IMG/VR virus record: IMGVR_UViG_3300031754_000001
Span: 62,001-126,000 of that record
Source: a virus
Strand: one strand, 5' to 3'
Length of the DNA stretch: 64,000 nucleotides
Translations under genes and position numbers: made by a program
The notes under the pieces: model-generated
The model's database searches: none
What the model was told of the DNA's origin: nothing
What the model saw: the letters and a program-made list of their open reading frames with translations, nothing else
Shown: in pieces, positions 3,201-62,203 of the stretch
Numbering within the stretch: the stretch's first letter is position 1
How the letters are laid out: every line of letters starts with the position of its first letter

Positions 3201-6048
3201 CGAGGCCACCCTGGCCAAGGTGCTCGGCATCTCCATGCCAGCGGCGATCGCGATATTCAACGCGGGCCTGCTCGGCAGCACTCAGGTTTCCGGCAACGTT
3301 ACCCAGGCGATCGTCGGCGATTTCCAGCGGCAGCAGAAAGCCGCGGACACGGCCGGCGCTGGTATTAGCGCGTATACCGACGCGATCCGCGGTAACGGCG
3401 TCGATTCCGGCCAGGCTCATTCCGCGCGGGATCAGCTGATCAAGGACATGACCGACGCCGGGGTCAACGCCAGCACCGCATCCACGGACGTGGCCCACTA
3501 CACCGCCGCGGTCCTCGCCAACGGCATCGATTCCAGCCAGGCGGCGTCAGCTCGCGCGCAGCTGATCAGCGACATCCTCGGCGCCAGCAACAACGCCAAG
3601 ACAGGACAGGCAGACCTGGCGACTTACAACCAGATGATCAGGACCAACCAGCAGAACACCGACGCAGGCAAGTCCGCGCGGAACAAGCTGATCCAGGACC
3701 TGGTGAATGCCGGCTTGTCCGCTAAGGACGCTACCGCTCTTGTCCAGGGCCTGCAAACGAATATCGACAAGATGCACGGCACGACCGTCACGATCATCGC
3801 GACGGCCAACGGTACCGGGGAGATCGCGATCACCGGATCCGGCTGGGCGCTCGGGTCCGGCAATATCCGGTTCCACGCCGCGCAAGGCCTGTACGTCAAT
3901 CAGGGTACCGGGCCGACCGCCGACGACGTGCTGATCCGGGCATCTAAGGGCGAGCTGATCGTGCCCGCGAACATAGTCAGTTCCGGTGCGGTGGATAACC
4001 TGCGCGGCAGGATCCCTGGATTCGCCGGCGGCGGCTTCGTCGGCCTGGGATCCATGCTCGCCGGCGTTCCGGGGACGGCGGGCCAGATCGCCGGGGCGGA
4101 CGCGGGCCGGGCGGTGGCGGCCGGCATCACCGAGGCGATGGCCGCGGCGAAGGCAGCGGTAGAAAAAGCTGCCGCTGCCGCGAGCGGCGCGGGCGGCATC
4201 GTCAAGTTCGCCGAGTCGTTCATCGGCAAGATCCCGTACGTGTGGGGCGGAACCTCTCTCGGCCCGGCCGGAGCAGACTGCTCAGGGTTCACGCAAGCCG
4301 TCTACGGCCATTTCGGTATCAGGGCACCCCGTACTAGCGAGGCCCAGGGCGCATGGGTCAAGGTAGGTGCCCCGACGCCAGGTGGCCTGGCCTTTTATCA
4401 CAGCTCGCCGGGCGGCCCCGATCCTGGTCATGTTGCTATTGTGGCTAATGCTAGCAGTGTGGTCTCCCAGGGCGGCGGGATCGGCCCGCAGATGATGGCC
4501 CTCACCGGGCTGCCGCTGCTGTTCACCGGCACGCCGCCGGGCGGGTTCCCGGGCGGATCCGGCGGGACTGCCCCGGCAGGGGTTACCGGGCTGTATTCCC
4601 TTACGCAGCTGGAAGCGCTGTGGGACGCGGCGGGGGGCAACCCGCGGGCCGCGAACAATATGGGCAGGATCGCCCTCGCGGAAAGCGGCGGTAACCCGCG
4701 GGCGTTCAACGCGTCCGGTGCATCCGGGCTGTGGCAGATCCTCGGGCAGGTTGTCGCCGGCAACATATTCGACCCGTTCATCAATGCAGAGAACGCCGTC
4801 TCGAAATACAACTCGTCGGGGTACCTGCCGTGGGTGTCGGATCCGGTGGCCAGCGCTCTGATCGCCTCGGGCCTGACCTACGCGGCTGGCGGCATCGCCG
4901 GGCAGCGGGCGCCTTTCTCCCGGCATGCCCCCGCTGGTCCCGGGATTCCGGGAATGGCGGGCGGCGGTACCACGAGCGCACTGCGCGCAAGGCTGGCCGC
5001 CGAGCAAGCCGGGGAACGCGCCAAGTACTCCGGGCTGGGGCACGCGTTCGCGACCGGGCCGGCGAAGTACCGCACCAGGTCGGTCATGAATGAACTGGCC
5101 ACCCTGGCCAGGCGGCAGACTGCCGAGCAGGCCGCGTACGCATCCCTGTCCGGGGCCGGGCTCACTACCAGTGCCCTGCACCATCTCGGTGCGGAGGCGC
5201 GGGCTGAGCTGCGCACAGCGGGAGATAAGGCGCTGTCCAAGGCGCCGGGCGGCCACCCGGGGTTCGCAGCGGACCTGCGGAAGTACCTCAGCCAGCTGTC
5301 CGCGACGGCGAGCGGCACCGTGGCCGGCGGCGGTACAGCCGGCGCGCTGCCCGCGACGGCGGCCGGCATCGCGGCGCTGCGGAAGTCCCTGGCCGCCGCG
5401 CAGAAAGGCGAGCGGGCCAAGTACTTCGGGCTAGGGCATTCCTTCGCCATCGGCCCGGCAAAGTACCGCACCAAGTCCGTCCTGGGCGAACTGGGTACCC
5501 TGGCCGAACGGCAGGCGGCTGAGACGGCCGCGTACGCGGCCCTGGCCGGATCCGGGCTCACCAGGGCCAGCCTGTCGCATCTCGGCGCGGAAGCGCGGGC
5601 CGAGATGCGCACCGCAGCCGACAAGGGCCTGTCCAAGATGCCGGGCGGGCACCCGCTGTGGGCGCGTGACCTGGGCCGGTTCCTGGCCGCCCTGAGCACT
5701 TTGTCCGGCACGCCGGTACCGGCACCGGGCGGCGGCGGGGGCGGGACGGCGCATCCGCCCAACCCGCCGTGGAACCCGGGCAACCTCGGCCCGTCGCATT
5801 CCGTGCCCGGCGGGGTGCTCACGTTCGACAAGGGCGGCCTGTGGCCATCCGGCACCCTGGGCTGGAACGGGTCGGGCCGCACGGAAACGGTCCTGCCCGG
5901 CGGCGGCGGGGACATGCACCTGCACCTGACCGTGAACGGGCCGGTCGGCAGCCAGGCCGAGCTGGAAGACTGGTACGTCCGCACCGCGAACAAGATGGCC
6001 CGGACGGGCAGGCTGAGCCAGGCGGTCAAGCGGGCGCAGGGTCACTAG
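145..6048 (+). CDS. tape measure protein with NlpC/P60 and transglycosylase-like domains
   Basis: 1967 residues, the longest gene here, and the likely ruler of tail length. The N-terminal ~230 residues are alpha-helical repeats with a recurring aspartate-containing spacing. Hydrophobic stretches follow at about 275-335 and 440-600, then Ala/Gln-rich helical sequence with ~45-residue repeats (roughly 960-1200). An NlpC/P60-type domain sits at about 1350-1470 with Cys1379 (DCSGF) and His1429 (GHVAI). A lysozyme/SLT-like segment follows with Glu1513 in LAESGGNP. Two tandem ~115-residue repeats lie at about 1610-1840. The start is chosen because GGAG precedes ATG 145. Tape measures with wall hydrolases are thought to help genome entry through peptidoglycan; that role here is inferred. 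Confidence 0.93.
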   Translation: MAGRKLGDVFFVVSPETKYFRAETDAGIKRAIAGMKVTVPVGADARSAIATIDGLQAKMKAVAARLSDLRIGADDKAAEAVIVRLQAKLAALAKAVSAITMTADTTKLDASIAREKAKLEALRLAASDLKMDADSTAAVAKIAALEAQAFHLGKSLDKLTADVDIDRALTKIYAIEAELKVLRSRAEVIRLDADSKAITAAITATEASIADLSHKAADIKLGASIDTGKLLTAEAGLLGIEAAVEKLTPVAVKGDAALGALGAALTGTGTGWGFLTRNIALFGGIFNRVLPMVATSVAVWHVLADAVIEVAAVWIPAGLAVGAFAIAASDAATEIQRRMTAVHTVMDATGQSVPPLTRAMENLHNAVRPQVYQLFGDALTVMNSRTGTFAQVAKQTGTVIDQLAARMVYAVTAGNKLGTSTTQLSGFWKTAITDASKLGDSIGNLFGIFGNLFRAIPGFAAGLLTIGDDFTKILETASAAAIPVLKWVLLLHGYILYTGLAVTGTLAFIGAVANLAKQFVTFAAGSVLAGVGALKAFGSTLVSIGLALAGYVESIIVADGASASFAAALAPLAANPMIWVAAAAVALGGLVYWLVTSKDAAQQFNASMQQTIQNAPLSNVVTVIQQAQASTAAQLAAANVRLAKTTKANSVEQLAAARAGGNANRAYQQAQLSAFQYQQGLQQVNAQAALVNGRVGALSKTYGGNTAALGILNAAGITTTQITDTNAVHWAQALIQVNSTIAAYQAMGIQAGVLGNDLDVLGRTVTDQYAAVQKLNQAWGSFISDVTGTQGSFDTVAQGFSTLDDHSGNLILRLGKLRVSYKDSQAAIDSLTPAGVALNQAFGDQVVNIDKLFSSWRTAGVAGNLFNQGVAAAIAPMEKYAVGSQEATAQLIALAQEAGYQGPVSLQAMNKYLGISNKMLGDTAGATQKVKDVTNQATVQEALLTGAMQSQGAVIANQLIGDINSAILAYDGVAKAAAGYGTAIAQYGKGSSQANTAQRTLTDSIIKAGLASNSTAGQIEATLAKVLGISMPAAIAIFNAGLLGSTQVSGNVTQAIVGDFQRQQKAADTAGAGISAYTDAIRGNGVDSGQAHSARDQLIKDMTDAGVNASTASTDVAHYTAAVLANGIDSSQAASARAQLISDILGASNNAKTGQADLATYNQMIRTNQQNTDAGKSARNKLIQDLVNAGLSAKDATALVQGLQTNIDKMHGTTVTIIATANGTGEIAITGSGWALGSGNIRFHAAQGLYVNQGTGPTADDVLIRASKGELIVPANIVSSGAVDNLRGRIPGFAGGGFVGLGSMLAGVPGTAGQIAGADAGRAVAAGITEAMAAAKAAVEKAAAAASGAGGIVKFAESFIGKIPYVWGGTSLGPAGADCSGFTQAVYGHFGIRAPRTSEAQGAWVKVGAPTPGGLAFYHSSPGGPDPGHVAIVANASSVVSQGGGIGPQMMALTGLPLLFTGTPPGGFPGGSGGTAPAGVTGLYSLTQLEALWDAAGGNPRAANNMGRIALAESGGNPRAFNASGASGLWQILGQVVAGNIFDPFINAENAVSKYNSSGYLPWVSDPVASALIASGLTYAAGGIAGQRAPFSRHAPAGPGIPGMAGGGTTSALRARLAAEQAGERAKYSGLGHAFATGPAKYRTRSVMNELATLARRQTAEQAAYASLSGAGLTTSALHHLGAEARAELRTAGDKALSKAPGGHPGFAADLRKYLSQLSATASGTVAGGGTAGALPATAAGIAALRKSLAAAQKGERAKYFGLGHSFAIGPAKYRTKSVLGELGTLAERQAAETAAYAALAGSGLTRASLSHLGAEARAEMRTAADKGLSKMPGGHPLWARDLGRFLAALSTLSGTPVPAPGGGGGGTAHPPNPPWNPGNLGPSHSVPGGVLTFDKGGLWPSGTLGWNGSGRTETVLPGGGGDMHLHLTVNGPVGSQAELEDWYVRTANKMARTGRLSQAVKRAQGH

Positions 6049-36292: not shown

Positions 36293-36447
36293 TCATTCCC
36301 TGCCCGGAATGCCCGAAGGTGTTCGAGGTCAGCGACGCGGACCCGGATGCCACGCTGTCCGACCTGTGGGAACACCTGTACGAGCACGCCCCGGACCACG
36401 ACCGGCGGAAGCAGCTGTTCATCAAGGCCCAGGAGCAGGCGGCATGA
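36289..36447 (+). CDS. 52-residue zinc-finger-like protein
   Basis: CPEC near the N-terminus and His residues in LWEHLYEHAPDH make a C2H2-like spacing. It overlaps the helicase start by 4 nt, suggesting coupled expression. Confidence 0.65.
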   Translation: MIIPCPECPKVFEVSDADPDATLSDLWEHLYEHAPDHDRRKQLFIKAQEQAA

Positions 36448-38282
36448 CGGCCCTTCAGTTCACGCCCCGGAACCAGTGGCAGCCGGCCGCCCCCGCCACA
36501 GTGTTCGGCGAGCTGACCGCGGACGGCACCCAGATCGTCCTGATCGGCCAGGGCAGTGACTGGGACCTGGACCAGATCGCCGCGCGGTTGCGGATGCTGA
36601 CCGCGAATCCCGTGCTGGTACGCGACGCGGACGGCCGGGATACCGACGCCATGCTCGTACCCGCCAGCTGGGCGAGCGTGGTCCAGCTCGGCTTCTCGTT
36701 CAACGGCTTCCCCGGGTTCGCCTGGCTGCCGCAACCCCGGCTGAACGAGTGGATCATCGCCGAGACGGTCCGCCGGACCTCCCCGGTGCCGCCGCTGCCG
36801 GACGATCTCTGGCCGCCGTGGCTGGAACCGCGCCCGTACCAGCTGGACGGCGCCGCGCAGATCGCGGCCGAGGGGAAATTCCTGCTCCTGGACGATCCGG
36901 GCGTCGGGAAAACTATTTCAGCGATCCTCGGCCTGCTGGGACGCCAGCACGCGGGACACGAGATCTTCCCGCTGGTCATCGTCGTCCCGTCCTGGGAGGT
37001 CGGCCGGGCCTGGGCCGATGAGATCGCCGCGTGGGCACCGGGCTGGCCGGAACCGGTCATGCACAAGGGGCCGGACCGGTTCGGCAAGATCACCCGCAAG
37101 CGCGGCCAGCCGCCCGGTGACTCGGTGTTCATCACCACCTACGCCACCCTGCGGGCCGACGCCGCCAGCATGCGCGGCCCGCTAGTCCGGCTGGCGCCCG
37201 CCGCGATGGTAGCCGATGAGTTCCACCTGGCTAAGAACCCCCGGGCTCAGCAGAGCCTCGCGCTGCAGCGAGTCGCCCGGCAGGCCGGCACGTTCGTGGC
37301 CCTGTCCGGCACGCCCATTACCTACGACACAGGTGATGTGCAACCGGTGATGGAGGCTGCCTGGCCGGATGACTGGCCGAGCAAGAAACGGATGACCTCG
37401 CGGTACTGCGCGCGAATCGAAGAGGAGTACGGCGAGCGCATCGTGGGCCTGAACCCGGCTGCCGCGCCGGAATTCTTCGCGATCATGGACCGGAACATGC
37501 GCCGGGTCGCCAAGGCCGACGTGCTGCCCTGGCTGCCGCCGAAAATCTGGTCGGTGCGCCGCCCGGACATCCCGGATGAGTGGATGAAAGCGTACCGGAC
37601 TATGGAGGAGGACATGCTGGCGCAGCTGCCGGACGGCTCCGAGCTGCCGGTGATGTCCGTCCTGGTCAAGATGATGCGGCTGAGCCAGCTCGCGTCCTGC
37701 GCGGCCGACGTGGAGCGCACCGAGGAATGGGACGAGAACCTGCAGGCGGTCGTGCCGAAGTACGCGGTCACGCTGAAGCCGCCCAGCTGGAAGGCGGACT
37801 CGCTGCTGGAAGTCATGGCCGAACGGCCCGGGGCACCCGTCGTCGCGTTCACCGCGTCCCGCCAGCTGGCCATGATCACCGGGCAGGCGTGCGAGCAGGC
37901 GGGGCACCGGACCGGGTACATCACCGGGATCGGCGACGGCATCACCAGCAGAACCCGGCAGAAGGCGATCGATGACTTCCAGGCCGGCAAGCTGGACGTG
38001 ATCGTGGCCACCGCCAAGGCCGGCGGCACCGGGATCACGCTCACCCGCGCGGGCACCGCAGTGTTCCTGCAGCGGAACTGGGAGCTGTCCGCCGGGGTCC
38101 AGCCGGAAGACCGGCTTCATCGCATCGGCCAGGAGCACGAGTCCGTGGAGATCATCGACATTGTGGCCGAAAACACGGTCGAAAGCAGGGTAAGGCAGCG
38201 ACTCAGGGAGAAGGCGGGCATGCTGGGTGAGCTAGTACGAGACCGGCGTATCGTGACTGAACTTCTCGGGGGGATCAGGTGA
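36444..38282 (+). CDS. SNF2-type superfamily 2 helicase
   Basis: 612 residues from ATG 36444, which overlaps the upstream gene; longer frames lack support. Walker A DDPGVGKT with Lys156, motif II D258-E-F-H261, motif III LSGTP, and motif VI QPEDRLHRIGQ define a superfamily 2 ATPase of the SNF2/DEXH type. An N-terminal ~100-residue domain precedes the motor. Likely role is DNA translocation in replication or recombination together with the fusion polymerase downstream. Confidence 0.9.
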   Translation: MTALQFTPRNQWQPAAPATVFGELTADGTQIVLIGQGSDWDLDQIAARLRMLTANPVLVRDADGRDTDAMLVPASWASVVQLGFSFNGFPGFAWLPQPRLNEWIIAETVRRTSPVPPLPDDLWPPWLEPRPYQLDGAAQIAAEGKFLLLDDPGVGKTISAILGLLGRQHAGHEIFPLVIVVPSWEVGRAWADEIAAWAPGWPEPVMHKGPDRFGKITRKRGQPPGDSVFITTYATLRADAASMRGPLVRLAPAAMVADEFHLAKNPRAQQSLALQRVARQAGTFVALSGTPITYDTGDVQPVMEAAWPDDWPSKKRMTSRYCARIEEEYGERIVGLNPAAAPEFFAIMDRNMRRVAKADVLPWLPPKIWSVRRPDIPDEWMKAYRTMEEDMLAQLPDGSELPVMSVLVKMMRLSQLASCAADVERTEEWDENLQAVVPKYAVTLKPPSWKADSLLEVMAERPGAPVVAFTASRQLAMITGQACEQAGHRTGYITGIGDGITSRTRQKAIDDFQAGKLDVIVATAKAGGTGITLTRAGTAVFLQRNWELSAGVQPEDRLHRIGQEHESVEIIDIVAENTVESRVRQRLREKAGMLGELVRDRRIVTELLGGIR

Positions 38283-41398: not shown

Positions 41399-41596
41399 AT
41401 GCCGCGCGCGAGAAGCCCGGGTAGGCGGGCCGGGACCTGCAGCCACTGCCAATGGCGATCGATCACATTCCCGGCAGGTCCCGGCCGCCAGACAGACCGG
41501 GGTACCTTTCTCCCCCCGCGAGTGAACGTGTCGGGCGCTTACACGATACCCCGCGGGCTCGCCGGCTACTCCTGCCAGACCCAGGGGGACAGATGA
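41399..41596 (+). CDS. 65-residue zinc-ribbon-like protein
   Basis: ATG 41399 follows GAGGAGGCACGCG, and the stop overlaps the next start (ATGA). CSHC and a late Cys suggest one metal site; the rest is polar. Function unknown. Confidence 0.6.
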   Translation: MPRARSPGRRAGTCSHCQWRSITFPAGPGRQTDRGTFLPPRVNVSGAYTIPRGLAGYSCQTQGDR

Positions 41597-42087
41597 ACAG
41601 CACGGAAATCAGCGGCACGTCATGCCCGCAGTGCGATGACGGCAACTGGAACGACCTTGGCTGCATGACGTGCGGCCTGGAATTCTTCCCGCCGTCCGAG
41701 GCGTACCAGGCTGCGGTACCGGTAAGCCTGCGCATAAAACGACTTCGCGCAAGCTGGGCTCCGGCTCCGCGCCTGACCCCGGCTGAAGACTGTTTCTGGG
41801 GGGCTTGTCTCGCCCGGGGTTACCCGTGGACTGACGATGTACTGCCGCAGGCTCGCATCGGTGCCTACCGGGCGGATTTCCTGCTAGCCGGAGCCAGGAT
41901 CGTTATCGAGATCGATGGCTTCAGCAATCACGCGAAAACCGCTGACATCACGCGCGACCGGCAGCGGCAGCGCTGGCTGCAAGGTCAGGGCTATCAGGTC
42001 ATCCGGTTCAGTAACACCGAAATCCAGCAGGCCCCGGAACGATGCGCGGCTGAAACTGACGCGCTGATTCGCGGGATGCTGTCATGA
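41593..42087 (+). CDS. DUF559/Vsr-like endonuclease with N-terminal zinc ribbon
   Basis: 164 residues. A CPQC...CMTC ribbon (residues ~11-28) precedes a PD-(D/E)XK core: YRADFLL (Asp), IVIEIDG (Glu, Asp) and ITRDRQRQRWLQGQGYQVIRFSN, typical of the DUF559 and very-short-patch-repair folds. Probably a single-strand nick or branched-DNA nuclease in phage recombination; substrate unproven. Confidence 0.75.
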   Translation: MNSTEISGTSCPQCDDGNWNDLGCMTCGLEFFPPSEAYQAAVPVSLRIKRLRASWAPAPRLTPAEDCFWGACLARGYPWTDDVLPQARIGAYRADFLLAGARIVIEIDGFSNHAKTADITRDRQRQRWLQGQGYQVIRFSNTEIQQAPERCAAETDALIRGMLS

Positions 42088-45000
42088 ACGCCCAGGTCCG
42101 GCAGGACGCGCCGGTCTACGCGTCGGCCTGCGCGGATTACTACCTGGCCGGGTGGACGTGCGTGATCCCGGTGCCGCCGGAAGCCAAGTTCCCTCCGCCC
42201 GGCGGGTTCACCGGGGCTGGCGGCCGGGACACCACCCCAGAGGACATCGCCGGCTGGGCGGAGCAGCTGCCCGGTTACTCGATCGCGCTACGGATGCCGG
42301 ACGGCGTGATCGGCATCGACGTCGATGAGTACGCCAAGGGCGAGACCGTCAAGCATGGCGCCGCGACCGTAACCGGGGCCGAGGGGGAATGGGGCGCGCT
42401 GCCGCCGACATGCTCATCGACTGCCCGCGGCCAGGATCAGCCGAGCCGCATCCTGTTCTACCGGGTGCCGGCCGGCCGGTACGCCAGCCAGCTCGGCCCG
42501 GATGTCGAGATCATCCAGCGGCATCACCGCTACGCCGTGGTCGCGCCGTCGCCGCACTCCGCTACCGGGACGCCGTATCAGTGGTACGGCCCGGACGGTT
42601 CCCCCCTGGGCGGGAAAGTCCCGGGACCGGGAGAACTGGCCGCTCTGCCGGAAGCGTGGATCCAGGGCCTGGCCGAGGGCGCCGCGGCAGCCAGCCCGAT
42701 GGCAGCCAGTATCGGCGAGGCCGGGCAGCTGCTGGCCTGGCTGGAGGCTGAGACCGGGCAGGTGTGCACCGACATGGCGCACGCGACGGCGGCGATCCTG
42801 GCCGAGACCACGGCCGCGCACCCCGGCTCCCGGCATGACCTGATGACCAGGGGCATCTACGAGCTGGTCCAGCTGACCGCCGAGGGCCACGGCGGTTACG
42901 GCACGGTCATCGCCCAGCTGCGCGGGCTATGGGGCGAGCTGACCGCCGGGGAAGACCGGGACGCCGAGTTCGGCGACATGATCACCACCGCGGCGCGCAA
43001 GGCCGTCACTGCCCACGGCCCGGTCCCGCAGGCAGCCGATCCGTGCCGGGTGTTCGGCCGCGGGCTGCCCCGGTTCGCCGCGCCCGCACCGGACGTGCCG
43101 CCGGGTGCGGGCCTAGATGATGACGAGCTGCCGCCGCCCGAGGCGCCGAGGTTCTGGTCGCCGTGGGGAGAAGACGGGATCGGCGTGCTGCCATTCGACC
43201 CGCCCGCCGGGCTGGACGGGATGCTGGCCCGCGACGTGCTGGGCCGTACCTGGCCGGTACTGCGGTACGCCCCGGACGCGGGCGCGTGGATCAGGCGCGG
43301 CCCGGACAAGTGGGACGTGATCAAGGGCGACTTGTCCAAATGGGCTGTCGACCTGGTGAGCGTGCTCATGCCGCCCGGTGACCCGGACGCCGCCCAGGGC
43401 AGCCCGGAACGGCTTCAGGCTGACCGGCGCAAGCGGTTCATGTCGAACTCCCCGGCCAACGCGATCGCCGGGAAGATGAACGCGCAGGTCGCCGCCGGGC
43501 AGCACCCGTCCGCAGTGGAACTGGCCGCGCTGGACACTGACCGGGAGATCCTGTGGGCCGGGGGCATGCCGTTCGACCTGCGGAACTCCGACGAGGCTCC
43601 GGCGATCTCGCGGTGGACCGACCCGGGCACCCCGCACCTGCACAGCGCGGGCGTGGTCCCGGAGCTGCGCCCCGTGCCGCGATGGGACGCGTTCCTGGCC
43701 GCGGTCTGGCCGGACGAGGACGTGCGGGCCTGGGCACTGCGCATCCTGTCGATCTCGTTCACCGGCTACCCGGACAAGGCGCTGCCCATCCTGCTCGGCG
43801 ACACCGACCGCGGTAAGACCTCGCTGATCATGCTGCTGATGTCCGTGCTGGGCAGTTACGCCCACGTGGCCGATGCCCGGCTGCTCGCCCCGGCTGACAA
43901 GTCACACGCCTCGATCGTGTACGCGCTGCGGGGCCGGCGGCTGTCGTTCATCGATGAGGCACCGCGCACCGGTCAGCTGGCTACTGAACGGCTGAAGCAG
44001 ATCACGGGCGGCGCGGACCTGACCGGCAACCGGATGGGCGAGAACCCCATCACGTTCCCCACCACTCACACGCTGATCCTGACCGCCAACCCCGAGCACG
44101 AGCCGGTGCTGACCGACGCGGCCATTCGCCGCCGGGTCCGGCTGATCCCGTGCAACGGCGATCCCGCCGCGGTCATCGCGGCCAGGGCGGCGATCGGCGC
44201 GGAGCACGGTGCCGCGTGGCGGGCCGAGGCACCCGGCGTGCTGGCCCGGATGATGGCCGAGACAGCCCGCTGGCTGGCTGACCCGCACAGCTCCGGCAAC
44301 GAGTCCGCGCCGGAAGCAGCGGCCCTGGCGGCGAGTGAGATCATGGCGAGCCAGGACCTCACGCTGCAGTGGCTGCGCGAGGAATGCGAGGATTTCGAGC
44401 GCGGCACCAGGAGCCGTGATCTCTACCTGGCGTTCACGGAGAGTTGCCGGCGGATGGCGGTGAACCCGGCTACGATGCCGTCCGAAACACGGTGGGGACG
44501 GAGGCTGACCGAACTCGGCTACCCCCCATATAAGCGGACGGACGCCAACTACCGGACCCTCCGGATCAAGCCCCCGCAGGTTTTCATGCCCGGACCAGCG
44601 GCACTGAGCGGTCAGAGCGGCGGTTCCGCCCGGCCGCATGGAGGGTCTGAGCCTGAAAATGGAGGGTTCATGGAGGGTTCGGGGTCAGGGCCTCAACCCT
44701 CCATGAACGGAAACACAGCAGGTCAAACCCTCCATGAAACCATCCATATGGAGGGTATGGAGGGTCAGTCAACGTATATAGCACACACACACGCGCGCAC
44801 ACGCGCGCACACGCAGGGGGGTAAAGACCAAACCCTCCATACCCTCCAACCTTCCATACCGCCCCCGGCGGACCCCCCCGCAGCGGAAAACCCCGGTTCG
44901 TCACCGGGCGTGACATCACCGGATGCCGCCAGGGCGGGCAAGCCCCGCAAGGCAGCCAGGCCCAGGGCCGTGAAGGTGCGGCCGGACCCGGTGCTGGAAG

Positions 45001-46871
45001 GCCCGGTGTACCAGCTGCCGGTCATCGTGGCGCGGAATCCGGACGGCGGCGAGCCGCTGGTGCTGTCGTGCTCGCCGGACGACGCGAGGGCGGCGGCAGA
45101 GGGCGCGCTGGCCGGCATGCACGTGGACTGCGAGACCTCGGGGTACCCGCCTGGTCACGCGGATTTCGCGTTGCGTACCGTCCAGCTGGGTGATGAGCAG
45201 ATGGCGGCGGTACTGGACCCGGCTGATCCGGAACAGGCGGCGGCAGTCACGGATCTGGTGGCGCGGGCGCGGGTACTGCACGCGCATTCGGCGGCGGCTG
45301 ACCTGGTGCCGCTCGCCGCAGCCGGGCTCGGCGACGCCGAGGCGATGTGGGCGAAGATGACCGATTCGGTGCTGATCGCCAAGCTGGCCGATCCGTCGCT
45401 GGCCGGGTCGGATGAGAACGAGCTGAAAAAGCTGGCCCGCGATCTGCTGGGAGGCTATGCGGTCAGCCCTCCTGCGGAGAAGGCCCGCAGCGCCCTGTTC
45501 AAGTCCGGTGGCTGGCTGACCGATACCACGGCGCTGACCCCGCCGGAGAAATCCGGATGGGGCCAGGTCAAGTCCGGTTGCGAGGTCATGGCCCGGTACG
45601 CCGGGTCCGACGTGCTGGACCTGGCCGCGGTGCTGCGCGTGCTGCCGGAGCCCGACCAGGCCGTGCTGGCGCGCGAGCGCGAGTTCCAGCGGATGTGCGC
45701 CCGGGTGAGCCATGCCGGGTTCCGGCTGGACCCGGTGCACATCCGGGCCAAGATCGCCGAGTACACCGCAGCCCGCGAAGCTGCCCGCGAGCTGGTGGCC
45801 GGCCTGTGCCCGGATATCACCAACCCGTCCTCCACCAAGGACGTCCCGGCCGCCCTGCTGGGCATGGGCATCCCGCTCGGCCGCACGAAGGACGGCAACC
45901 CGAGCGCCGCCAAGGCCGTGCTGGAGCCGCTGGCGGCCGACGAGAGCTATGAGCATCACGAATTGCTGCGCGGCATCCTGGACTACCGGCATGACGTGAC
46001 CACGCTCGGGCTGCTGCTGGAGCCCCTGGGAAGGCTGTGCGAGCACGGCGACGGCCGGATGCGCCCGGTGGTCTACACGATCAACGCCGACACCGGCCGG
46101 ACCAGCTGCGTCCGTCCCAACGGGCAGCAGTTCTCCCGGCAGGGCGGCATCCGCGCGTGCGTCATCGCGGATGAGGGCATGGCCGGAGTCTCGGCTGACT
46201 TCTCTGGCGTGGAGATCCGGGTCGGCGCCGCGCTGTCCGGTGACAGGGACCTGCTCGCCGCGGAGCTGTCCACGTACTGCCTGGCGTGCGCGTCCGATCC
46301 GTGTGCCTGCGGGCAGGGCCAGACCGGGCTGCACTGGATGGCCGCGCGGATGGCGTTCGGCGCGGGCGCCACCAAGGAAGACCGTTACAACTCCAAGCGG
46401 ATCATCTTCTCCAAGATGTTCGGCGGCGGCCCGAAGTCCGGTGCGGCCCAGGTGGGCGTGCCGGTGGAGGCGGCGTACGCGGTGCACAGCGCGTTCGAGC
46501 AGATCGCGCCTGCGTTCACCGAGTGGGATAAGCAGATGCGCGCCTACGCGGAGGCCGGCAACCGCGGTTTCCGGGCATATTCCGGCCGGGTCATCTGGCT
46601 GCCGCGCGGGCGCAGTCACGCGGCCGGCAATTACGCGATCCAGGGCTCGGCCCGGGAGCTGCTGGTGGACGGGTGCCTGCGCTGGCACCGGACCCGCTGG
46701 GGCCATCTGCCGCTGCTGCCGATCCATGACGAGATCCTGGTATGGGTTCCGGCTGAGGAGGCGCTGGAGGCCCGGGAGACGCTGAAGGCGTGCATGGCCG
46801 GCGAGCTGTACGGCGTGCCGATCGAGGCCAAGGCCGACGAGCCGTTCCTGGCCTGGCCGGATTCTTCGTGA
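42084..46871 (+). CDS. primase-helicase-DNA polymerase fusion
   Basis: 1595 residues in one frame without stops. Domain order: Prim-Pol primase/polymerase (~1-200, Asp79 and Asp81 in IGIDVD); D5-type superfamily 3 helicase (~450-800, Walker A GDTDRGKT with Lys578 and Walker B Asp624-Glu625); a low-complexity linker (~835-975) whose DNA carries iteron-like repeats; a 3'-5' exonuclease domain (~1005-1190, Asp1015 and Glu1017 in DCETSG); and family A polymerase (~1210-1595) with motif A Asp1372 (ADFSGVEIR), motif B Lys/Arg helix (YNSKRIIFSKMFGGG) and motif C His1548-Asp-Glu1550. No 5'-3' exonuclease domain is present. One chain thus combines priming, unwinding and proofreading synthesis. An internal start producing a free polymerase cannot be excluded, as GGAGGG-ATG combinations occur in the linker. 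Confidence 0.9.
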   Translation: MNAQVRQDAPVYASACADYYLAGWTCVIPVPPEAKFPPPGGFTGAGGRDTTPEDIAGWAEQLPGYSIALRMPDGVIGIDVDEYAKGETVKHGAATVTGAEGEWGALPPTCSSTARGQDQPSRILFYRVPAGRYASQLGPDVEIIQRHHRYAVVAPSPHSATGTPYQWYGPDGSPLGGKVPGPGELAALPEAWIQGLAEGAAAASPMAASIGEAGQLLAWLEAETGQVCTDMAHATAAILAETTAAHPGSRHDLMTRGIYELVQLTAEGHGGYGTVIAQLRGLWGELTAGEDRDAEFGDMITTAARKAVTAHGPVPQAADPCRVFGRGLPRFAAPAPDVPPGAGLDDDELPPPEAPRFWSPWGEDGIGVLPFDPPAGLDGMLARDVLGRTWPVLRYAPDAGAWIRRGPDKWDVIKGDLSKWAVDLVSVLMPPGDPDAAQGSPERLQADRRKRFMSNSPANAIAGKMNAQVAAGQHPSAVELAALDTDREILWAGGMPFDLRNSDEAPAISRWTDPGTPHLHSAGVVPELRPVPRWDAFLAAVWPDEDVRAWALRILSISFTGYPDKALPILLGDTDRGKTSLIMLLMSVLGSYAHVADARLLAPADKSHASIVYALRGRRLSFIDEAPRTGQLATERLKQITGGADLTGNRMGENPITFPTTHTLILTANPEHEPVLTDAAIRRRVRLIPCNGDPAAVIAARAAIGAEHGAAWRAEAPGVLARMMAETARWLADPHSSGNESAPEAAALAASEIMASQDLTLQWLREECEDFERGTRSRDLYLAFTESCRRMAVNPATMPSETRWGRRLTELGYPPYKRTDANYRTLRIKPPQVFMPGPAALSGQSGGSARPHGGSEPENGGFMEGSGSGPQPSMNGNTAGQTLHETIHMEGMEGQSTYIAHTHARTRAHTQGGKDQTLHTLQPSIPPPADPPAAENPGSSPGVTSPDAARAGKPRKAARPRAVKVRPDPVLEGPVYQLPVIVARNPDGGEPLVLSCSPDDARAAAEGALAGMHVDCETSGYPPGHADFALRTVQLGDEQMAAVLDPADPEQAAAVTDLVARARVLHAHSAAADLVPLAAAGLGDAEAMWAKMTDSVLIAKLADPSLAGSDENELKKLARDLLGGYAVSPPAEKARSALFKSGGWLTDTTALTPPEKSGWGQVKSGCEVMARYAGSDVLDLAAVLRVLPEPDQAVLAREREFQRMCARVSHAGFRLDPVHIRAKIAEYTAAREAARELVAGLCPDITNPSSTKDVPAALLGMGIPLGRTKDGNPSAAKAVLEPLAADESYEHHELLRGILDYRHDVTTLGLLLEPLGRLCEHGDGRMRPVVYTINADTGRTSCVRPNGQQFSRQGGIRACVIADEGMAGVSADFSGVEIRVGAALSGDRDLLAAELSTYCLACASDPCACGQGQTGLHWMAARMAFGAGATKEDRYNSKRIIFSKMFGGGPKSGAAQVGVPVEAAYAVHSAFEQIAPAFTEWDKQMRAYAEAGNRGFRAYSGRVIWLPRGRSHAAGNYAIQGSARELLVDGCLRWHRTRWGHLPLLPIHDEILVWVPAEEALEARETLKACMAGELYGVPIEAKADEPFLAWPDSS
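44638..44857. repeat. iteron-like 9-bp repeats in the primase-polymerase linker
   Basis: ATGGAGGGT occurs at 44638, 44659, 44670, 44748 and 44757. Its reverse complement occurs at 44696, 44727 and 44832, with variants at 44841 and 44849. Copies pair into hairpins (13-bp perfect 44667-44679 with 44695-44707; 9-bp 44727-44735 with 44748-44756). The density and mixed orientations resemble replication-origin iterons. Confidence 0.75.
44781..44814 (+). repeat. CA/CG alternating purine-pyrimidine tract
   Basis: (CA)n and (CG)n alternate for ~34 bp and encode His/Thr/Arg residues of the linker. Such tracts can form left-handed DNA under negative supercoiling. It lies beside the only AT-rich patch of the linker (ACGTATATA). 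Confidence 0.7.
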
Positions 46872-61813: not shown

Positions 61814-62203
61814 TTAGCCCTCCTGTTCCGGGGTCGTGATGGAGGCTGCCCACTCGCGCATCCGGCGCAATTCCCCGGCCGTGTCCGCGGTGTGCTCGTA
61901 GGCTTTCAGGTAGGCGGACCGGACGTCGTGCTCAGCGGACCGGGCGGCAGCCAGCTTGGCTTCCAGCTGGGTGATGCGAGCCTGGGCGGCGGGCAGTGGT
62001 TCCAGGATGGTGACGCAGCTGACGTGCGCGGATTCGCTGCCGTCGTCCAGGCAGAGGAACAGGTCCCATTCCCCGATTGGCTTACCGCAGTCGGTGCAGT
62101 CGTCCAGGCTCTCGCGGGGCTCGGTGTACGACGTCCGGGTCCATGCGATGTCCTGGAGAGGCTCGGTGCAGGTGCCGTCATCGTTCCTGGTCAGGATAAT
62201 CAT
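61814..62203 (-). CDS. zinc-binding coiled-coil protein
   Basis: 129 residues. CTDCGKPIG near 36-44 and a later Cys form a zinc ribbon, then a long coiled helix (ARITQLEAKLAAARSAEHDV). Ends PEQEG, as in the neighbouring gene. Confidence 0.68.
   Translation of the reverse strand: MIILTRNDDGTCTEPLQDIAWTRTSYTEPRESLDDCTDCGKPIGEWDLFLCLDDGSESAHVSCVTILEPLPAAQARITQLEAKLAAARSAEHDVRSAYLKAYEHTADTAGELRRMREWAASITTPEQEG

Follow-up and report, generated by a model that had tools for sequence, protein, structure and literature searches.

A candidate iteron origin inside the coding sequence of a viral Prim-Pol-helicase-PolA fusion gene, and a possible wing code for its units

This analysis concerns a 64,000-nucleotide stretch of viral DNA (IMG/VR record IMGVR_UViG_3300031754_000001, positions 62,001 to 126,000; hereafter the window) and a module of ATGGAGGGT repeats within it. 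The module lies inside a single open reading frame (ORF 42084-46871) in which a Prim-Pol domain, a superfamily 3 (SF3) helicase, a winged helix and a PolA-type DNA polymerase are fused. It is located directly 3' of the helicase/winged-helix part and ahead of PolA (Table 1). The module very probably represents an iteron origin of the self-loading-helicase type that lies within the coding sequence of its own replisome gene; we infer both binding and origin activity from sequence comparison and structure models. As judged from covariation and a predicted fold, the reader of the repeats is most likely the helicase's C-terminal winged helix and not the Prim-Pol domain. Origins of this class are known. 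The translated intragenic position and the wing code appear to be new as far as our searches reach: neither a fusion-embedded origin nor a wing code was found described in titles and abstract openings of the open-licence PubMed Central (PMC) literature.

The module contains eight exact and three one-mismatch copies of ATGGAGGGT, that is 11 units in 220 bp in both orientations, in agreement with the roughly ten copies counted in the first-pass annotation of this DNA. In the whole 139,583-bp record, exact ATGGAGGGT occurs only as these eight copies and the reversed-pattern control gives none. When up to one mismatch is allowed, the number of copies in the window as a whole is not above expectation (15 versus a shuffle mean of 13.2), and it is their clustering that is unusual. 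The arrangement is symmetric: two core pairs with 9-bp spacing face each other over 66 bp. The perfect hairpins that had been described correspond to inverted repeats of 17/17 (44749-44765 with 44832-44848) and 14/14 (44666-44679 with 44695-44708). The AT-rich patch and the CA/CG tract are likewise present. The GC content of the module centre falls within the lowest ~3% of the locus, and positions 44781-44815 form a 35-nt purine/pyrimidine alternation unmatched by any background stretch of equal length in the locus. Within the module, Tandem Repeats Finder (TRF) reports the CACACGCGCG tract only; the units occur in both orientations with conserved spacing, which does not correspond to a microsatellite pattern.

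The position of the repeats was examined in relatives. A scan of 2.9 million viral contigs with TGGAGGGTNTGGAGGGT returned 84 stretches. Together with the window's own locus this makes 85 loci, of which 35 carry a cluster of four or more TGGAGGGT units, on both strands, in a stretch of 300 bp; most of the 35 have a homolog of the window's helicase directly adjoining the cluster. Since this set is biased by its search pattern, a sample of 135 loci chosen by helicase protein similarity alone was taken instead (5 from genomes, 50 + 80 from viral contigs, the 80 being the best 80 of 587). Clusters were defined as the densest 8-mer, of any sequence, in both orientations within 300 bp, and were scored as inside when they started between -50 and +700 bp from the helicase end. 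Such a bidirectional cluster occurs in 103 loci, just 3' of the helicase in 97 and elsewhere in 6; for clusters of at least five copies the figures are 79 inside and 3 elsewhere. After removal of proteins at least 90% identical (n = 117), 82 are inside, 6 elsewhere and 29 have none, for a length-expected share of 8%. The first-pass annotation had raised the question of relatives with the same fusion and no repeats. In the 46 nonredundant loci of the fused family the cluster lies 3' of the helicase in 37 and elsewhere in one, while 8 have none under the strict exact-8-mer test; several of the latter, such as the closest relative L091, show degenerate versions by eye.

Fused-family genes are rare in the genomes searched (1/396, 3/215, 4/354, 3/332 and 3/338, in overlapping draws; the first figure is read from a search with laxer limits that also gave 26 genomes with more distant matches). 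An exact-protein scan of the viral contigs gave no match, and a search for fused relatives in 'phages' gave only distant, unfused ones among the matches listed. The protein alignment was divided into subgroups A2, A3, A5 and A6, of which A3 provides the unfused comparison below.

In 53 of the 54 loci of the fused family, the reading frame crosses the module without a stop and reaches PolA; the remaining locus, L098, is truncated at the end of its contig. In the A3 group, the ORF ends before the module and does not include PolA at any of the 82 loci. Its stop lies 5-110 codons past the helicase in 80 of them (L141-L220); in L139 and L140, the most distant two, the ORF continues for 144 and 133 codons. 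The copies fall in two (14 loci) or three (32 loci) reading frames in every one of the 46 fused-family loci scored, which bears out the variable frames first noticed in the window. The open frame in the fused family, the stop ahead of the module in A3 and the use of two or three frames together indicate that the DNA pattern persists irrespective of its translation. The fused gene is consistent with an origin that is intergenic in unfused relatives and translated here as a linker. An origin with selection acting on the DNA rather than on the protein, as originally proposed, is the best-supported reading. In L091, the fused frame stops 372 codons past the helicase (downstream of 5847) and PolA continues in another frame, reflecting either a frameshift or a sequencing error.

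The geometry of the module is maintained while its unit changes. Unit sequences among relatives include TGGAGGGT, TGACGGGT, TGAAGGGT, TGCAGGGT, GGACAGTT, GCGAGGGT, GCGATAGT, TGACAGTT and GGGAGGAT. In a set of 137 loci (the 135 above, the window and Streptococcus phage Sfi21), with one mismatch allowed, a core of two same-strand units facing two opposite-strand units is found in 76. Among these 76, the two units of a pair are 9 bp apart in 54 loci on the left side and in 45 on the right, and the gap between facing pairs has a median of 71 bp (range 35-134). Many fused-family loci have a common map of unit positions although the unit differs, and the unit bases p1-p4 (defined below) have undergone at least 19 changes on a tree of 42 proteins. 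Spacing is conserved in homologs while the unit sequence changes, which speaks against a repeat number that varies freely, as in a microsatellite. The centre is poorer in GC than the rest of the locus in both groups (0.54 versus 0.71 in the fused family, 0.50 versus 0.64 in A3). The purine/pyrimidine alternation, previously read as a Z-DNA tract, recurs at the centre (p<=0.01) in 27/47 fused-family and 28/66 A3-group loci. It is frequent but not universal, so that the alternation stands while a requirement for Z-DNA does not.

A further element, CAG[GC]TCA, which is independent of the unit, is found downstream of the helicase in 37/54 fused-family loci, and its start lies 28-31 bp from that of the left core in 16 of the 18 loci where both are mapped. 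It is possibly the site of a second factor or a priming site. The element is also seen, as TGACCTG, in the module of Mycobacterium phage Strobilo. Centres of the A3 group (e.g. L143, L144, L160 and L165) often carry a G-rich GGGGTTnGGGG-like motif flanked by TACGCGTA/CATGCGTA-like stretches. One locus, L032 (8917-9160), has a mixed array in which a further unit, GTGGAACTT, stands next to TGGAGGGT units; this array has possibly been caught between two unit types.

The fused ORF matches the PHROG families DNA primase (residues 8-824) and DNA polymerase (1012-1586). A predicted model of the 453-residue helicase piece (pLDDT 93.5) has SF3 primase-helicases as its top Foldseek matches, and the winged helix (residues 740-831) modelled alone reaches a pLDDT of 85.2. 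The two strands of its wing comprise residues 436-437 and 442-448 of the model, corresponding to ORF residues 816-817 and 822-828. In VIA-align, the top match of the winged helix is the phage P4 origin-binding domain (1ka8_A; Z 9.1, root-mean-square deviation 1.8 over 73 residues), followed by the tails of African swine fever virus (ASFV) Prim-Pol proteins and RFX DNA-binding domains (Z 8.8-8.3, the RFX domain at 8.3), Z differences below 1 counting as ties. Foldseek E-values for the winged helix alone are weak (best 0.012, RFX5; 0.37 for the P4 domain). RFX1 is said to contact bases mainly through its wing, which fits the covariation described next. The C-terminal tail of ASFV C962R resembles both the P4 origin-binding domain and Rfx1, according to the part of the source consulted (PMC10516667).

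Units were written as NTG-p1p2p3p4-GTT, where p1 and p2 are the most variable bases among fused-family loci. Covariation with the protein was analyzed in the 46 of 54 loci with a full-length N part and a unit, reduced to 42 by removal of near-identical proteins; the unit of L111 (CAGG) was set by hand. After correction for similarity, residue 817 ranks first of 660 variable columns for p1 (r 0.49, z 7.8) and residue 822 ranks first of 660 for p2 (r 0.53, z 10.6). Both belong to the two strands of the predicted wing. With traits simulated on the tree at three rates, the best column reached the observed r in 4/300, 0/300 and 0/300 cases for p1 and in 2/300, 0/300 and 0/300 for p2. Within the sample, H817 goes with A at p1 (16/16) and K or R817 with G (13/16), while N822 goes with A at p2 (13/13), K822 with C (17/18) and W822 with C (3/3). 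On the tree, each association provides 8 independent well-supported pairs, of which on average 7.3 (817/p1) and 7.2 (K or W822/p2) change in the expected direction and none in the contrary one. Median sign-test p values are 0.016 (817), 0.016 (K/W822) and 0.031 (N822); the cross-controls are weaker (0.25 for 817 with p2, 0.125 for 822 with p1). Two close pairs illustrate the changes. L090 and L109, which are 83% identical and have the units ACGG and GAGG, differ by H817R and K822N; L097 and L088 (AAGG and ACGG) differ by N822K with H817 kept.

The independent A3 group was analyzed in the same way, using 60 of 82 loci with hand-anchored units (51 nonredundant; the 22 others had no unit anchored). 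Here the base preceding p1 is associated most strongly with the residue that aligns with 819 (z 5.8), and 817 comes second (z 4.5): R819 goes with C in 22/22 cases, D817 with C in 16/16 and K817 with G in 14/17. In this group p1 and p2 are nearly invariant and their top columns lie outside the wing; the associations of p3 and p4 are unremarkable. The wing rule was also written down before new loci were fetched. It was scored on L270 (with L302, identical as shown, counted once), L279, L300, L301, L303 and L304, leaving L287 unscored for its ambiguous wing alignment; L300 has no exact 8-mer cluster and its unit was read by eye. The base p1 was right in 5/6 cases, the miss being L304 (K817, unit GTGCAGGG), and p2 was right in the 4/4 cases where the rule speaks. 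This hold-out is supportive of the rule but not decisive. The encoded primase, first suggested as the reader of the repeats, is not favoured; wing covariation and the predicted fold resembling the P4 origin-binding domain both point to the C-terminal winged helix of the helicase.

Among known systems, Sfi21 has the same layout. In its record (NC_000872) the segment 34487-34784 bears the annotation 'origin of replication, 302 bp non-coding region, phage inhibitory sequence'; it lies immediately 3' of an NTP-binding, SF3-type 'putative primase' gene, and a Prim-Pol gene is nearby. The sequence shows a tandem TTAGTTACTTAGTTACTA, an AT-rich centre, an inverted tandem pair and outer units on both sides, hairpin units among them, with a core gap of 69 bp. 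It differs in that this origin is intergenic, its unit is of the TAGTTACT type, its pair spacing is 8 bp, its centre is very AT-rich, and Prim-Pol and helicase are separate genes. The features shared with the self-loading SF3 iteron origins of SaPI / Sfi21 type are repeats 3' of the helicase, symmetric units with an easily melted centre, and an SF3 helicase (Pfam DUF5906) with a C-terminal winged-helix domain (the predicted model matching the P4 domain). Phage lambda carries the iterons of its origin inside the replication gene O, and its initiator is not an SF3 helicase. The likeness to lambda that had been pointed out holds only for iterons inside the coding sequence of the initiator, as no lambda-O-like domain is found among the Pfam or PHROG matches (E<=0.01) of the fused ORF.

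SaPI Rep and SCCmec Cch2 both use their C-terminal domains to recognise iterons located immediately 3' of the gene for the helicase (PMC7581432). Their origins are intergenic with other unit sequences (three AAGTG iterons for Cch2), and a wing code is not mentioned for either in the portion of that source consulted. Phage P4 gp-alpha contributes the best structural match (1ka8) of the predicted C-terminal domain, but its primase is of the Toprim type, unlike the Prim-Pol here (PMC4234260). In the plasmid pRN1, ORF904 is a Prim-Pol-SF3-winged helix protein whose origin lies just downstream of its gene; this origin is described as a stem-loop and has no iteron structure (PMC4234260). The same authors draw a stem-loop after the replication gene of Bordetella phage BIP-1 (PMC4234260). 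In our analysis, the BIP-1 region has two 9-bp-spaced units facing two inverted ones ~68-70 bp apart, the same core as here. The Prim-Pol of phage NrS-1 is also a replication protein of the AEP-helicase kind, and its start site is sequence-specific (TTTGGTTA; GTGA/GTGG) (PMC8718748). That site differs in that it is recognised by the primase, with the HBD binding it on the template strand, and TTTGGTTA has 0 matches in the 64-kb window.

Several observations weigh against this picture. The cluster is not universal: the strict test finds none in 32 of the 135 homologs. Eight further named phages with related helicases were scored by the same criterion, and the module is present in two (Microcystis phage Mae-JY02 and Strobilo) and not found in six (Attoomi, Heather, phiGBSVK-A, KeAlii, Honk and Dalilpop). 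In 29 far actinobacterial loci, with short flanks and partial helicase matches, the cluster is downstream in 9, elsewhere in 1 and absent in 19. Skew does not decide the matter: GC/AT skew of the window does not mark the module, and the cumulative GC-skew minimum, a check proposed at the outset, lies at 37,330, 7 kb away. The Sfi21 origin enters here through its annotation, the experimental paper behind it reportedly being that of Foley and colleagues (1998). As for the wing, residue 607, which lies outside it, ranks second for p2 (z 6.5). R817 occurs with C (L114) and with A (L130), K817 with C (L111 and the hold-out L304), P817 with both A and G, and K822 with A (L124). In the 83% identical pair L102/L111 (GAGG versus CAGG), the change at p1 is accompanied by N822H, with K817 retained. 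This pair and L304, which has H822 in common with the p1 = C locus L111, suggest that H822 also affects p1. Finally, the hold-out is small, and L279 (whose wing equals that of training locus L136) and L302 are not independent.

With these points considered, we lean, with some reserve, towards the wing of this P4/RFX-like domain being a readable code that determines, across a wide range of phages and prophages, which origin is chosen. Residue 817 would specify p1, 822 would specify p2 and, in unfused relatives, 817/819 would specify the base before p1. The array of about ten copies would have been rewritten en bloc many times with its spacing fixed, even where it is translated. It may be conjectured that escape from origin decoys of satellites or resident elements is the driver; the Sfi21 record, as quoted above, labels its origin a 'phage inhibitory sequence'.

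Four other explanations were considered. The units may be operators through which the winged helix regulates transcription of its own or downstream genes, with no origin involved. Covariation indicates that the protein reads the units and not for what purpose. However, the module lies inside or after the gene rather than at a promoter, a simple consensus scan of 44300-45200 found neither a sigma-70-like promoter nor a terminator, the annotated origin of Sfi21 shares this layout, and the facing core pairs flank a low-GC centre, so that operators are unlikely. Still less probable is a single-stranded DNA or RNA structure (single-strand origin, or mRNA processing or regulation) in which unit identity would matter through pairing only. 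The single-strand DNA fold of 44630-44865 is indeed very stable (z = -7.7; equally stable shuffles 0/200), and the pRN1 origin is a stem-loop downstream of a Prim-Pol-helicase gene in the part of the source consulted (PMC4234260). Pairing alone would nevertheless not predict tandem 9-bp spacing or base-specific wing covariation, and the Rfam scan of the module gave no family at gathering score (best E 0.011, 25.8 bits versus 88). Inverted repeats are also common at recombination, attachment and packaging sites, but a site of this kind lying 3' of the helicase gene by chance is very improbable given that the module is linked to the helicase in both fused and unfused loci and covaries with the helicase's own wing. 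A low-complexity protein linker or expanding tandem repeat devoid of DNA function, suggested by translation of the module in the fused family, is contradicted by the two or three frames used in 46/46 loci, the position outside the ORF in A3 and the conserved orientation and spacing of copies whose unit changes, and can hardly be entertained.

For the iteron origin, the following scheme may be proposed. The C-terminal winged helix of the Prim-Pol-SF3 helicase would bind the 9-bp units through its wing. The two tandem units on each side, facing across the 66-bp centre, would seat two helicase rings head to head, and the outer hairpin units would serve as additional binding sites. The rings would then melt the centre, where Prim-Pol would prime, and the PolA domain of the same polypeptide would extend the primer. 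If this is correct, the origins of many uncultured phages and prophages could be found from sequence alone, and the unit could be partly predicted from a few residues of the initiator. The joint change of specificity of an initiator and its ~ten-site array could be tested with the natural pairs L090/L109 and L097/L088. Moreover, the window would provide an origin that lives inside, and is translated with, a Prim-Pol-helicase-PolA fusion.

Table 1. Features of the fused replisome gene and its repeat module (window coordinates)
Feature	Position	Strand	Basis or remark
Fused replisome gene, 1595 aa: Prim-Pol - SF3 helicase - winged helix - repeat module - PolA	42084..46871	+	ORF, Pfam, PHROG
Prim-Pol (archaeo-eukaryotic primase, AEP) domain, residues 18-189	42135..42650	+	Pfam Prim-Pol 3e-20
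SF3/D5-type helicase core, residues 572-678	43797..44117	+	Pfam DUF5906 6e-7
C-terminal winged-helix domain, residues 740-831, putative origin-binding domain	44301..44576	+	structure model
Wing residues 817-822; candidate specificity residues 817 and 822	44532..44549	+	covariation with unit bases; model
DNA polymerase A domain, residues 1241-1583	45804..46832	+	Pfam DNA_pol_A 1e-32
Repeat module, candidate origin	44638..44857	.	11 units of ATGGAGGGT or near-copies, both orientations
Exact ATGGAGGGT	starts 44638, 44659, 44670, 44748, 44757	+	
Exact ATGGAGGGT	starts 44696, 44727, 44832	-	
One-mismatch ATGGAGGGT	starts 44739, 44841, 44849	-	
Outer iteron	44638..44646	+	
Outer iteron	44659..44667	+	
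Outer iteron, hairpin left arm	44670..44678	+	partner 44696-44704
Outer iteron, hairpin right arm	44696..44704	-	
CAGGTCA, unit-independent element	44719..44725	+	22 bp ahead of first core unit
Outer iteron	44727..44735	-	
Outer iteron	44739..44747	-	one mismatch
Core iteron L1	44748..44756	+	
Core iteron L2	44757..44765	+	9 bp past L1
66-bp centre between facing core pairs, candidate unwinding element	44766..44831	.	contains the alternation 44781-44815
Core iteron R1	44832..44840	-	
Core iteron R2	44841..44849	-	one mismatch
Iteron	44849..44857	-	one mismatch

In Strobilo (L310), gene 74, annotated as a 'hypothetical protein', overlaps the module (3490-3954) and is perhaps a spurious call covering an origin. 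In the window, an ORF for a DUF559/restriction-endonuclease-like nuclease (41452-42087) overlaps the start of the fused gene by 4 bp, and an ORF for an SNF2-type helicase (36309-38282) is located upstream of the replication gene.

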